DNA from: Leptolyngbyaceae cyanobacterium M33_DOE_097
GTDB lineage: Bacteria; Cyanobacteriota; Cyanobacteriia; Leptolyngbyales; Leptolyngbyaceae
Length of the DNA: 64,000 nt
Reading direction: 5' to 3'
Assembly (NCBI GenBank): GCA_015296075.1
Contig: DVDV01000408.1
Coordinates: 1 to 64,000 of the forward strand
This document shows positions 10,765-38,016 of this stretch, one piece after another. A model generated the notes under the pieces. It made no database searches. It worked only from the letters and a program-made list of their open reading frames with translations, and was not told the DNA's origin. Position numbers and translations under genes: made by a program. Position 1 is the stretch's first letter. Each line of letters opens with the position of its first letter.

Positions 10765-10813
10765 AGCCATGCTATTCAACCCTACCAACTTCTTACACGA
10801 ACAAACAGCAGCG

Positions 10814-11036
10814 ATCGCCCTCGTAACCGTCGCCTCACGTCACCCGTCCCCTCTGTCAGCGATCGAAATGCCAAACGGTACGGGTTACCGTTTGGCTAGC
10901 TAACCATCCAATACCTACCCGCATCACCTTGCGGGGGTTGTAGGGGAGTGAGGCCCCTACGAGCGGGGGCGCGGGGGGAAGACCCCCGATCTTGCGGCTC
11001 CGCCGCCCCCAGATCTCCGCTACACCCCATCCAAAA
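10814..11036. repeat. Structured intergenic repeat, copy A
   Basis: About 223 bp, homologous over its full length to 24849-25073 in the same orientation. It holds a perfect 11-bp hairpin GCCAAACGGTA (10870-10880) / TACCGTTTGGC (10886-10896), then GTAGGGG / CCCCTAC, then a nested GC-rich fold (CGGGGG / CCCCCG inside an outer GGGGGC / GCCCCC pair). There is no ORF in it. It fills most of the gap 10765-11219 between the GH57 gene and recG. Confidence 0.8.
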
Positions 11037-11219
11037 AAACAACCCTAGCGATAGCCTACTAATTCAGCTGTAAGCCCCATCAACTGAACAGCACAAACAG
11101 CGACTCCTACTACTGAGCCGAAGAGCGGATAAAAACCCAGTTTCAGCATCCAAATTGGAACGCTACAGGTAGGATGGCTATAGCGCCTTGAAGGCAAACT
11201 AGCCATCGACCCAATCGGT

Positions 11220-24458: not shown

Positions 24459-24639
24459 ACGCTCTTTTGAAAATCACCTGGGTTAATTGTGCTGGATGCC
24501 CCCTGAGAATGCTACCCTTCTGACGTTCATTGGCTCTACTGACAAGCAGTGGGAGAATTTGCTCTAGTCTAGCGGTTCCAAATCTTCGAGTGAAAACACC
24601 CTGCTGAGATCAAAAAACGTCTTCTAAGCGCAATTCATT

Positions 24640-24800
24640 CTGAGCCTGCGAACCTTGGGGGCGTCGCCCCCAAACCCCCGCGAGGGGCCGAACCGCCTCC
24701 CCTCGCCTCCCCTGCGGAAGGTGTTGCTAATTCCAGTGCTTGACAAAAGGGGTTAAGGGTGGGGTGGGAACCCTGCTGCGCAGGCTTAAACCACATCTTG
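24640..24800. repeat. GC-rich hairpin cluster
   Basis: Three local inverted repeats follow one another: TTGGGGGC-gtc-GCCCCCAA, then CGAGGGG / CCCCTCG with an 11-base spacer, then CCTGC-tgc-GCAGG near 24775. There is no ORF. Together with repeat copy B it fills the 640-bp gap 24459-25098. It looks like a second type of dispersed palindromic element, but I see only one copy here. Confidence 0.5.
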
Positions 24801-24848
24801 CACTCCTGACAAAAAGCGATTCGGCAGTCTAAACGGCTTTTGAAAACA

Positions 24849-25073
24849 ATCGCCCTACGTAACCTCCGCTTCACGTCACCCGTACTTTCTGTCAGAGATC
24901 GAAGCGTCAAACTTACAACCCGTACCGTTTGGCTAGCTACCCATTCAACACCCACCGACACCACCTTGCGGGGGTTGTAGGGGAGTGAGGCCCCTACGAG
25001 CGGGGGCACGGGGGGAAGTCCCCCGATTCGCGGCTCCGCCGCCCCCAAATCTCCGCTTCACCCCAATCAAAAA
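24849..25073. repeat. Structured intergenic repeat, copy B
   Basis: About 225 bp, matching 10814-11036 in the same orientation. The right half (24961-25060) is nearly identical: the block around GTAGGGGAGTGAGGCCCCTA and the nested GC-rich fold ending in GGCTCCGCCGCCCCC. The left half has diverged, and its equivalent of the 11-bp hairpin is no longer self-complementary. It ends about 26 bp before the stop of the DUF2301 gene. Confidence 0.8.
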
Positions 25074-35721: not shown

Positions 35722-38016
35722 ATGGAAAGTGAACGTCAGCCACTCCCAATCGAAGCCAACGCCAGTCGCTTGAAGTGGTTACCTCTTCCAAGTGCCCCAC
35801 AAGACAGCGATGAAGGTGGGCTTAACCTGGGACAAGTGTTTGGGGCTTTACGCCGTAAGCTACCTGTGATTGCTGGCGTTGCAACGGTTGTTGCTTCAGG
35901 GGCCGTTCTTCGGGCAATGAGCAGCACCCCTACTTATGCCTCTAGCTTTGAAATTCTAACTAAGCCAGTAACGGTTGAAACCCAGGTACTCTCGTCTGTT
36001 CCCCAAACCCTGAGTAATAAGGAACAACCTCCGGCTGGATCTGAATCTGTTGATCAAACAAAATTAAAGTTGCTCAAGAGTCCTAGCTTGCTGGCCCCGA
36101 TCGCCAAGCAACTTAAGTCAAAATATCCTGACATTACGTCTGATGAACTGTCCGCCAATCTAGTGGTTCTTCCTTTACCAAACAGTGAGATTCTCAACGT
36201 TGCTTACCAGGACAAAAATCGAGAAAAAGTCAAAGATGTGCTCAACTTGGTTTCTGCCGCCTACTTAAAATACAGCCTGGATGAGCGGCTGGCCGATGTA
36301 CAGCAGGGGATTGACTTTGTGGATGTCCAGCTACCCCAGCTAGAGAAACGGGTACAGAATATTCAAGACAAACTCCAAACTTTCCGCCAACAGTACAACC
36401 TGATTGACCCCGATTCTGCCTCGAAGCAACTCGCCGATCAGACTGCCAGTATTGCTCAGCAACGACTTGAGACACAAGTTCGGCTCAATGAAGCACGAGC
36501 GCTCTTCGCTGACATTCAAAGACAGTTTTCGCAACGGTCAAATGAACGAGTGACCTCCTCAGCGTTGAGTGAAAATCCGCGCTATCAGGCCTTGCTAAAT
36601 CAACTCCTTGAGATTGAAAGCCAGATCGCGAAAGAGTCAAGCCTCTTCCGTGAAGATACGCCCAATATCCAGGTTTTACGAGACCAAAAAAATAATCTTT
36701 TACCTCTGTTGGAGCGAGAAGGTGCGCGGGTTGAAGATGGCCTTGCTAGCCGAATTCGAGAACTAGAAGCGCGAAATCAAATTTTGGCTCAGACCGAGCA
36801 AGTCCTGATTCAACGGGTTAAAAATCTGTCTATTGTTTCGCGTCAGTATGCCGATATTCAGCAGGAACTCAAAATTGCAAACGAGAACCTGAATCAGTTT
36901 CTGGCGAAGCGCGAAGCCCTCCGGATTGACGCTGGCCAGAAGAAAACGCCCTGGCAAGTTTTAACGCCTCCGGGTGAGCCAGTGCCATCTGCCACCAACG
37001 TCAAACGGTCAGCTATGCTGGGCGTCATTTTAGGCTTGCTGTTGGGGGTTGGTGCAGCGCTCTTGCTCGATCGCCTGAGCAACGTGGTCTATACCTCCAA
37101 AGAAGCTAAGCTTGCCAGCAAACTGCCGTTGTTGGGCGTAATTCCCTTTTATGCTGGTTTGGGTGAAACCGAAAAAGTCTCCCTTACAACCAACTTCTCT
37201 GAGTTGTTGAACCACGTCCAGCAGCGACTGGGGCTAGAAGCTGGCAAATCAAACTCTTACTCCACGTCTCCTTTCTATGAGGCGTTTCGATCGCTCTTCA
37301 CCAACATTCAGTTACTCAATTCTGATACACAGATTCGCTCCTTTGTGATTACCTCTTCCGTTCCCGGTGAAGGGAAATCAACTGTGGCAATTTACCTGGC
37401 CCAAGCGGCGGCGGCTTTAGGTCAACGGGTTTTGCTAGTAGATACTGACTTACGCTTACCCCAAATTCATAATCGCCTAGAGCTGCTGAATGGTTATGGC
37501 CTCAGTAATTTGATTGCCTCGGAAGAGTTAACGCTGGATCAGGTGGTGCAGCAATCTCATTTAGATAGTGATCTGTATGTCTTAACGGCAGGCCAGATTC
37601 CGCCTGACCCAACTAAACTGCTGTCTTCCAAGAAGATGCAAGCCCTCATGGAGCAATGTCGGGCTGAATACGATCTGGTGATCTATGACTCCCCCCCGTT
37701 GATTGGGCTAGCAGATACCAAGCTGATTGCCTCTAAAACCGATGGAATTGCGATGGTTGTGGGTCTGGGCAAGGTGAAAAACTCTGAGTTTACCCGTTCT
37801 CTCGATGACTTGAAATCATTCCCTGGCGTTGTTTTGGGCATTATTGCCAACGGCTCAAAAGAACAAGATAAGAACCGATATTCTTACCATCGCTACTTCA
37901 ATAATGGGGTGGATGCAGGATTGCAAGAACCCGCCCAGCTACCAACCCCCGCCCTTCCAACGATCGCCCTTGAACGGCCAGTCGGTGAAGACTTCAGCAA
38001 AAGCGTCAGCAAGTAA
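35722..38016 (+). CDS. Polysaccharide biosynthesis tyrosine autokinase (Wzc/BY-kinase)
   Basis: A 764-residue inner-membrane co-polymerase and kinase. It has a Wzz domain with an N-terminal transmembrane helix (KLPVIAGVATVVASGAVLRA), a long periplasmic coiled coil (about 170-400), a second helix (AMLGVILGLLLGVGAALLLD) and a cytoplasmic BY-kinase domain. The kinase motifs are Walker A SSVPGEGKST, Walker A' LLVDTDLRLPQ and Walker B LVIYDSPPLIG. The C-terminal Tyr residues (RYSYHRYFNNG) are a modest cluster compared with E. coli Wzc. It controls chain length and secretion with the SLBB protein upstream. ATG at 35722. Confidence 0.94.
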   Translation: MESERQPLPIEANASRLKWLPLPSAPQDSDEGGLNLGQVFGALRRKLPVIAGVATVVASGAVLRAMSSTPTYASSFEILTKPVTVETQVLSSVPQTLSNKEQPPAGSESVDQTKLKLLKSPSLLAPIAKQLKSKYPDITSDELSANLVVLPLPNSEILNVAYQDKNREKVKDVLNLVSAAYLKYSLDERLADVQQGIDFVDVQLPQLEKRVQNIQDKLQTFRQQYNLIDPDSASKQLADQTASIAQQRLETQVRLNEARALFADIQRQFSQRSNERVTSSALSENPRYQALLNQLLEIESQIAKESSLFREDTPNIQVLRDQKNNLLPLLEREGARVEDGLASRIRELEARNQILAQTEQVLIQRVKNLSIVSRQYADIQQELKIANENLNQFLAKREALRIDAGQKKTPWQVLTPPGEPVPSATNVKRSAMLGVILGLLLGVGAALLLDRLSNVVYTSKEAKLASKLPLLGVIPFYAGLGETEKVSLTTNFSELLNHVQQRLGLEAGKSNSYSTSPFYEAFRSLFTNIQLLNSDTQIRSFVITSSVPGEGKSTVAIYLAQAAAALGQRVLLVDTDLRLPQIHNRLELLNGYGLSNLIASEELTLDQVVQQSHLDSDLYVLTAGQIPPDPTKLLSSKKMQALMEQCRAEYDLVIYDSPPLIGLADTKLIASKTDGIAMVVGLGKVKNSEFTRSLDDLKSFPGVVLGIIANGSKEQDKNRYSYHRYFNNGVDAGLQEPAQLPTPALPTIALERPVGEDFSKSVSK

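Follow-up and report, generated by a model that had tools for sequence, protein, structure and literature searches.

The window is a stretch of 64,000 nucleotides of the Leptolyngbyaceae cyanobacterium M33_DOE_097 (contig DVDV01000408.1), and two copies of one repeat, A and B, lie in it between genes. Copy A is flanked by a DUF3536/GH57 gene and a recG-like gene, and copy B by a short-chain dehydrogenase gene and a DUF2301 gene (Pfam). The repeat is built of two modules, D of about 235 bp and U of about 255 bp.

Part of D is common to other genera and is called the core. It is described by R1, a covariance model of 79 positions and 50 sequences. The alignment under R1 took 50 of the 84 distinct cores collected, namely 12 of the 45 from the host genome and 38 of the 39 from its relatives. 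The features are listed here, the E-values of R1 being rough.

10808..11037, plus strand: copy A, a solo D module with no adjoining U (nhmmer D profile, L105 3909-4138)
10870..10896, plus strand: perfect 11-bp hairpin, private to copy A (1/46 copies)
10915..10992, plus strand: core of copy A, the part common to other genera (R1, G000:C237:10915-10992, E 1.2e-17)
10940..10960, plus strand: hairpin 1 (GTAGGGG / CCCCTAC), its stem with compensatory changes between genera (coordinates from the window sequence)
10972..10988, plus strand: hairpin 2 (CGGGGG / CCCCCG), almost invariant (coordinates from the window sequence)
10994..11006, plus strand: hairpin GCGGC / GCCGC, almost invariant in 46 aligned D copies, beyond the core model (coordinates from the window sequence)
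24605..24856, plus strand: U module adjoining copy B on the 5' side, with its final bases overlapping the D profile (nhmmer U profile, L106 3706-3957)
24652..24730, minus strand: diverged inverted core within this U (R1, L106 3753-3831, E 2e-6 with filters off, 2.8e-5 in a second search)
24841..25073, plus strand: copy B, a D module (nhmmer D profile, L106 3942-4174)
24952..25029, plus strand: core of copy B (R1, G000:C237:24952-25029, E 4.6e-18)

The first-pass annotation had described a two-copy repeat of about 225 bp, similar over its full length and in the same orientation between 10814-11036 and 24849-25073. The two copies do align end to end. Their right halves are nearly identical as it had said, with 94% identity there and 76% in the left half in an alignment of 46 copies. 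The extent given to copy B was too short, since the second module, U, lies immediately 5' of it.

In two further points the copies differ. The absence of any ORF holds for A at 100 aa, whereas a mechanical minus-strand ORF of 137 aa (24635-25048) covers much of the U-D block at B. Copy A folds better than its dinucleotide shuffles, with -98.2 kcal/mol, z -3.92 and 1 of 200 shuffles equally good. The fold of B is not better than its dinucleotide shuffles (z -0.88, 41 of 200 equally good). Rfam gave no match in the window or in the loci of four relatives, and with E up to 5 on five loci it gave two chance-level matches, both outside the elements.

Copies and modules in the host genome

The repeat is not limited to two copies. 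A 24-nt signature with at most 3 mismatches is found at 58 sites (30 forward, 28 reverse) of the 6.96-Mb draft genome of 437 contigs, and the reversed-signature control at none in the same draft. R1 gives 62 core matches. A DNA search gives at least 40 matches, scored from 110 first-look candidates, and the copy counts rest on the signature scan and the core model rather than on it. The whole-genome count, proposed in the first pass as a check, thus returns about 60 dispersed sites, and this copy number rules out a recombination-derived repeat with only two copies.

The modules were mapped by profile searches in 60 loci, fetched around the D-signature or core sites and the U-only sites. They contain 68 D and 40 U matches, fragments counted, and U has at least 40 matches in the host genome, scored from 52 candidates. 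Many D copies are adjoined by U on the same strand, and the orders are U-D, D-U, D-U-D and U-D-U. BIME, ERIC, RU and other intergenic mosaic repeats are modular and imperfectly palindromic and lie between genes. The element here, set beside them by description, resembles them in being modular and intergenic.

U holds a diverged D core on the opposite strand, hence U-D is an inverted doublet. With filters off, R1 finds this opposite-strand core in 4 of 4 loci (E 1.4e-7 to 2e-5). With default filters and E <= 0.05, it is found in 20 of 25 full-length U copies and in one U fragment, the five full-length copies without a match being those of L094, L096, L115, L118 and L130. The U-D block at copy B is 469 bp long and its hairpin-bearing cores are about 220 bp apart.

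The doublets occur in relatives as well. There, a core is accompanied at 12 distinct loci by a weaker one on the opposite strand, no more than about 300 bp away; the order is minus-then-plus, as in U-D, at 10 of them and the reverse at 2. This count was made by hand in 90 partly overlapping sources, with duplicates of one locus merged. It omits L207, where two near-identical inverted copies resemble an assembly artefact.

The D copies were compared in an alignment of 46 of the 53 full-length ones, seven with insertions or internal gaps being omitted. Their mean pairwise identity is 0.80 and the closest pair reaches only 0.91, so there is no sign of recent movement in the host genome. By halves, the mean is 0.733 for the left and 0.898 for the right. 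The cross-genus core lies within the right half, which supports the earlier idea that this half is the constrained part.

The perfect 11-bp hairpin of copy A had been taken as lost in copy B. Such a stem is found in A alone of the 46 copies, and the other 45 reach 3–7 bp at its site; judging from these sequences, it was probably gained in A rather than lost in B. The reverse complement of its 27-nt stretch is closer to the other copies in 35 of 45 comparisons, equal in 8 and worse in 2. The difference is small, with means of 19.5 identical letters for the reverse complement and 18.1 for the stretch itself. The excess would fit a gain by template switching in an imperfect palindrome, by which the loop was inverted.

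The structure with hairpins 1 and 2 has 14 pairs and is 92.9% paired over the 50 sequences. Cells changed on both sides number 26 versus a shuffled mean of 11.6, and slid versions give 9 at most. In hairpin 1, one GC pair has become UA in 11 rows, and a second GC pair has become AU in 12 rows. Covariance modelling, also proposed in the first pass, therefore reveals compensatory changes in hairpin 1 across genera. Hairpin 2 scarcely varies in this alignment.

The covariation is limited, as two of five measures are not clearly above the shuffles and the alignment rows are related. Pairs changed on both sides are 4 versus 3.0 in shuffles, a value reached by 38 of 500; further pair types are 9 versus 8.2, a value that 130 of 500 shuffles reach. 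In hairpin 1, which has eight pairs, two are unpaired in 28 and 15 of the 50 rows. Within the host genome alone the covariation is too weak, with a double change at 1 of 30 predicted D pairs and 2 of 27 U pairs.

An extra third hairpin with the loop TGACGCTGTGCCA stands between hairpins 1 and 2 in some copies, eight in the host genome by motif search and a ninth (L145) by eye. These long-form cores of the host are in L102, L093, L107, L137, L138, L139, L131, L140 and L145. The third hairpin, with different stems, is also in protein-coding genes of another genus, namely in the CobN inserts of G052 and G004 and the AMP-binding gene of G053. It occurs as well in one locus of Leptolyngbyaceae cyanobacterium RU_5_1.

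Several other repeat features were met in the host genome. In the D copy at L150:3732-3810 (G000:C13), the hairpin 1 region is substituted by the palindrome GGGGCGTTTCGCGAAACGCCC, a possible hairpin swap. A separate MITE-like repeat of about 115 bp has the terminal inverted repeats TATAGC...GCTATA and lies at L148:4404-4519, L111:7330-7445, L104:793-907 and elsewhere; 10 or more of the 60 fetched loci contain it whole or in part. A repeat of about 140 bp is common to the ends of several contigs (L097:1-138, L110:4334-4475, L100:1-142, L108:1-137), with ends like AGAATGATTCTCA / TGAGAAT in L097 and L110. The assembly appears to break at it.

Distribution, placement and in-frame copies

By R1, the 79-nt core is present in 26 of the 42 genomes of the family and in none of the other 16. 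In the wider class, 84 of 388 sampled genomes have it, with matches taken down to E 1e-3 so that the weakest positives may be chance. There, 12 candidates were scored per genome and the per-genome counts are lower bounds. The abundance is lineage-specific. The host has 62 matches, G010 52 and G015 22, others having 14, 12 and fewer; R1 gives none in the sole congener sampled (G001, 95% complete) and none in eight g7 genomes.

A query with the whole U-D block matched 14 of 39 genomes, these being the host and 38 relatives and the host counting among the matches. Outside the host, the matching part is in most cases a stretch of only some 60 bp within D's right half; in 2 of the 13 other genomes (G017, G029) it is just 25 nt of U, which is probably a chance match. 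Named genomes, scanned with a pattern, yielded 28 stretches, every one of them cyanobacterial, and the taxa include Leptolyngbya, Stenomitos, Lyngbya, Tildeniella, Aphanocapsa and several genomes from metagenomes. As to mobile carriers, no match was found in plasmids or phages, nor by exact pattern in viral contigs.

Relative to genes, the 55 element-bearing gaps are 25 convergent, 27 tandem and 3 divergent. For comparison, the same loci hold 128 further gaps of 100 bp or more, and these divide into 15 convergent, 62 tandem and 51 divergent ones (Fisher p 1.3e-6 for the convergent and 8.5e-7 for the divergent class). Both counts cover the 60 fetched loci (448 kb) rather than the complete draft, and genes were taken as mechanical ORFs of 130 aa or more. 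Lowering the cut-off to 90 aa turns the 55 into 25 convergent, 28 tandem and 2 divergent gaps, and a mechanical ORF is then touched or overlapped by 7 of the 62 blocks (L095, L097, L101, L108, L118, L122, L133).

Most host copies are thus at gene 3' ends. Within the tandem gaps, the element is on the strand of the genes in 18 and on the opposite one in 9, which is not significant (p 0.12). Purifying selection against insertions in promoters would produce such a placement bias. A terminator or promoter role was considered, and simple scans around A and B gave nothing inside the copies, in particular no T-run terminator. One minus-strand terminator match, at 11101-11120, is outside copy A and within shuffle expectation.

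The core also lies inside genes of relatives. Of 67 core places there, one locus (L202/L244) being counted twice, 16 are within an open frame of at least 100 codons on each side. Fifteen belong to the sister genus g4, as the records were matched. The remaining one, L168 (G015), is a doubtful case in which two unrelated domains are joined. No such in-frame insertion was seen among the host copies.

The genes with an in-frame core encode CobN (PF02514), a sarcosine-oxidase-like protein (GCV_T and SO_alpha_A3 domains) and an AMP-binding enzyme, identified by Pfam on one member each and by eye for the others. In them the core is read in three frames and both orientations. The CobN alignment has two core-bearing inserts in all six g4 genomes (G004, G020, G051, G052, G053, G055; that of G053 aligned in two pieces), both in frame and one per orientation. 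The CobN of the host, G001, G007 and G015 has neither insert at those places.

In several genomes, pairs of inverted cores separated by about 2 kb had the look of an autonomous insertion sequence. They are CobN with its two inserts, as found by the reading of L247, Pfam on L249 and the CobN alignment. A frame of 533 aa lies between the cores of one other inverted pair (L251, G010).

Rickettsia palindromic elements are palindromic and lie also in frame inside protein genes. Their likeness to the element here is by description; they belong to a different phylum, and the element here forms a larger composite outside genes. As a separate observation, the protein of the AMP-binding gene at L196:2976-4808 of Lyngbya sp. 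HA4199-MV5 (G004) has 55 matches in that genome, and most of the matches listed are at residues of about 95-170 or 250-345. This pattern suggests that further in-frame repeat families may exist within g4 genes.

Origin and kinship of the family

The repeat probably belongs to a mobile palindromic repeat family that is old, non-autonomous and carried by filamentous cyanobacteria. The first-pass annotation had offered a non-autonomous mobile element, a structured RNA or a recombination-derived repeat, and the first is the best supported of the three. Four results lead to this reading: the dispersed copies, the lineage-specific abundance, the inverted doublet and the g4 in-frame copies absent from four orthologues. 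The genes flanking A and those flanking B are not adjacent in the relatives searched, so these two copies offer no empty-site or target-duplication comparison.

As to the mechanism, the unit of spread would most likely be the inverted doublet U-D with its two core regions pointing outwards, which may also be the ancestral unit. Solo D copies such as copy A would then be partial units. We infer a transposase acting in trans; its target would be the hairpins of the core, probably in single-stranded form, in the way proposed for REPINs. Insertions would persist where least harmful, between convergent genes and after stop codons, and in the sister genus they may survive in frame within variable protein stretches. 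After insertion, the element would probably become part of the transcript, as a cluster of hairpins in the 3' UTR.

A REPIN is an inverted doublet of REPs, proposed to be mobilised by RAYT (PMC3116915). As outlined in the consulted part of that paper, REPINs share with the repeat here the conserved, hairpin-forming inverted ends around a less conserved spacer, the compensatory changes, the extragenic position, the many copies and the solo units (PMC3116915). The U-D blocks consist of two inverted repeats around a spacer, solo D copies existing besides, and they are predominantly extragenic in the host genome, the core being also inside genes in g4. They differ in size, with 469 bp at copy B and cores of about 79 nt, whereas the REPIN 16-mers of the same part are mostly spaced by 71 or 110 bp (PMC3116915). 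The ends of U-D are also diverged from each other, and no linked Y1 gene was found, unlike in that account of REPINs (PMC3116915).

RAYT linkage was pursued through the Y1 families, with the relatives' flanks searched by R1 and the host's by the D and U profiles and R1, and it was dropped. The host draft has four Y1_Tnp matches, one of them broken, and none of the four has a core, D or U within about 1.5 kb; a RAYT that the draft assembly lacks would have escaped this search. Six relatives have 37 Y1 matches, and among the 30 loci examined a core is near one, being the known CobN copy and incidental to that gene. A Y1 match with two in-frame TAG stops in G020 (L303, G020:C2, near 36642-36998) is about 1 kb from the insert-bearing CobN gene. 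This proximity is probably a coincidence.

The GTAG-tagged REPs (GTAG-12, -15 and -16) are also close in description, being GC-rich GTAG stem-loops downstream of cyanobacterial genes, like the host form here (PMC3733652, in its consulted part). Their GTAG is an unpaired tag (PMC3733652), which in such REPs is at one end of the stem-loop. Here, in contrast, GTAG is within the stem, and two of its columns co-vary with their partners (GTGG/CCAC and TTTG/CAAA in other genera). The comparison is by description, not by consensus sequence. A 2025 survey counts REP candidates in some cyanobacteria and, in the part consulted, names no family like the one here (PMC12306157). A literature search over titles and abstract openings gave no paper naming it.

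A different reading is that the repeat is a structured 3'-UTR RNA under selection, such as an mRNA stabiliser, a processing site or a read-through attenuator between convergent genes, its copying being incidental. Transcription into 3' UTRs is possible for the copies at gene 3' ends, the compensatory changes of hairpin 1 and the far stronger conservation of the right half would suit an RNA, and on the plus strand the D copies depart from Watson-Crick pairing by G-T more than by A-C (89 vs 11 over 24 pairs, and 26 vs 5 minus two pairs). However, 15 of those 26 G-T cells are at a single pair in related copies, and across genera the departures of 4 vs 2 are not significant. This strand test merits little weight, as few column pairs dominate it and they are not independent.

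The lack of T-run terminators in A and B, of an Rfam family and of any copy in the congener G001 also speaks against the RNA as the main cause. Moreover, purifying selection alone can exclude copies from divergent gaps. We therefore regard this reading as unlikely, although some RNA role is possible from the sequences.

A classical MITE is improbable; such an element derives by deletion from a DDE transposon and carries terminal inverted repeats and target duplications. The dispersal and the inverted, spaced and partly complementary halves would agree with it, and the host genome does hold a MITE-like element with terminal inverted repeats (module W). The aligned D and U-D ends have, by eye, neither short terminal inverted repeats nor target duplications, however, and the right end tapers off across some 40 bp. 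The search of the Y1 families gave no transposase gene whose ends match. Homologous recombination or gene conversion of an ancestral duplication as the only copying route is more improbable still, for the mosaic order of common modules and the tandem D-U-D blocks (e.g. L091), which could come from unequal crossing-over, are set against about 60 dispersed sites with mostly unrelated flanks, the strong gene-context bias and the g4 in-frame copies absent from orthologues in four other genomes.

Returning to the mobile palindromic family, a more specific idea may be ventured, to which we give somewhat less than even credence. One cyanobacterial family, made up of exchangeable hairpin modules, would be moved by an as yet unrecognised enzyme, both as large inverted doublets at gene ends and as a coding insert that is tolerated in either orientation. 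The idea of exchangeable modules comes from the third hairpin with the loop TGACGCTGTGCCA, found both in intergenic copies of the host and in CobN inserts of another genus.

For annotation, the family explains about 60 repeated blocks of the host draft genome. It is a test case for the spread of REP-like elements without a linked RAYT, and the CobN inserts permit a comparison of the inserted with the uninserted gene. Within a free-living phylum, the family connects palindromic repeats that lie between genes with insertions that lie in frame within proteins.
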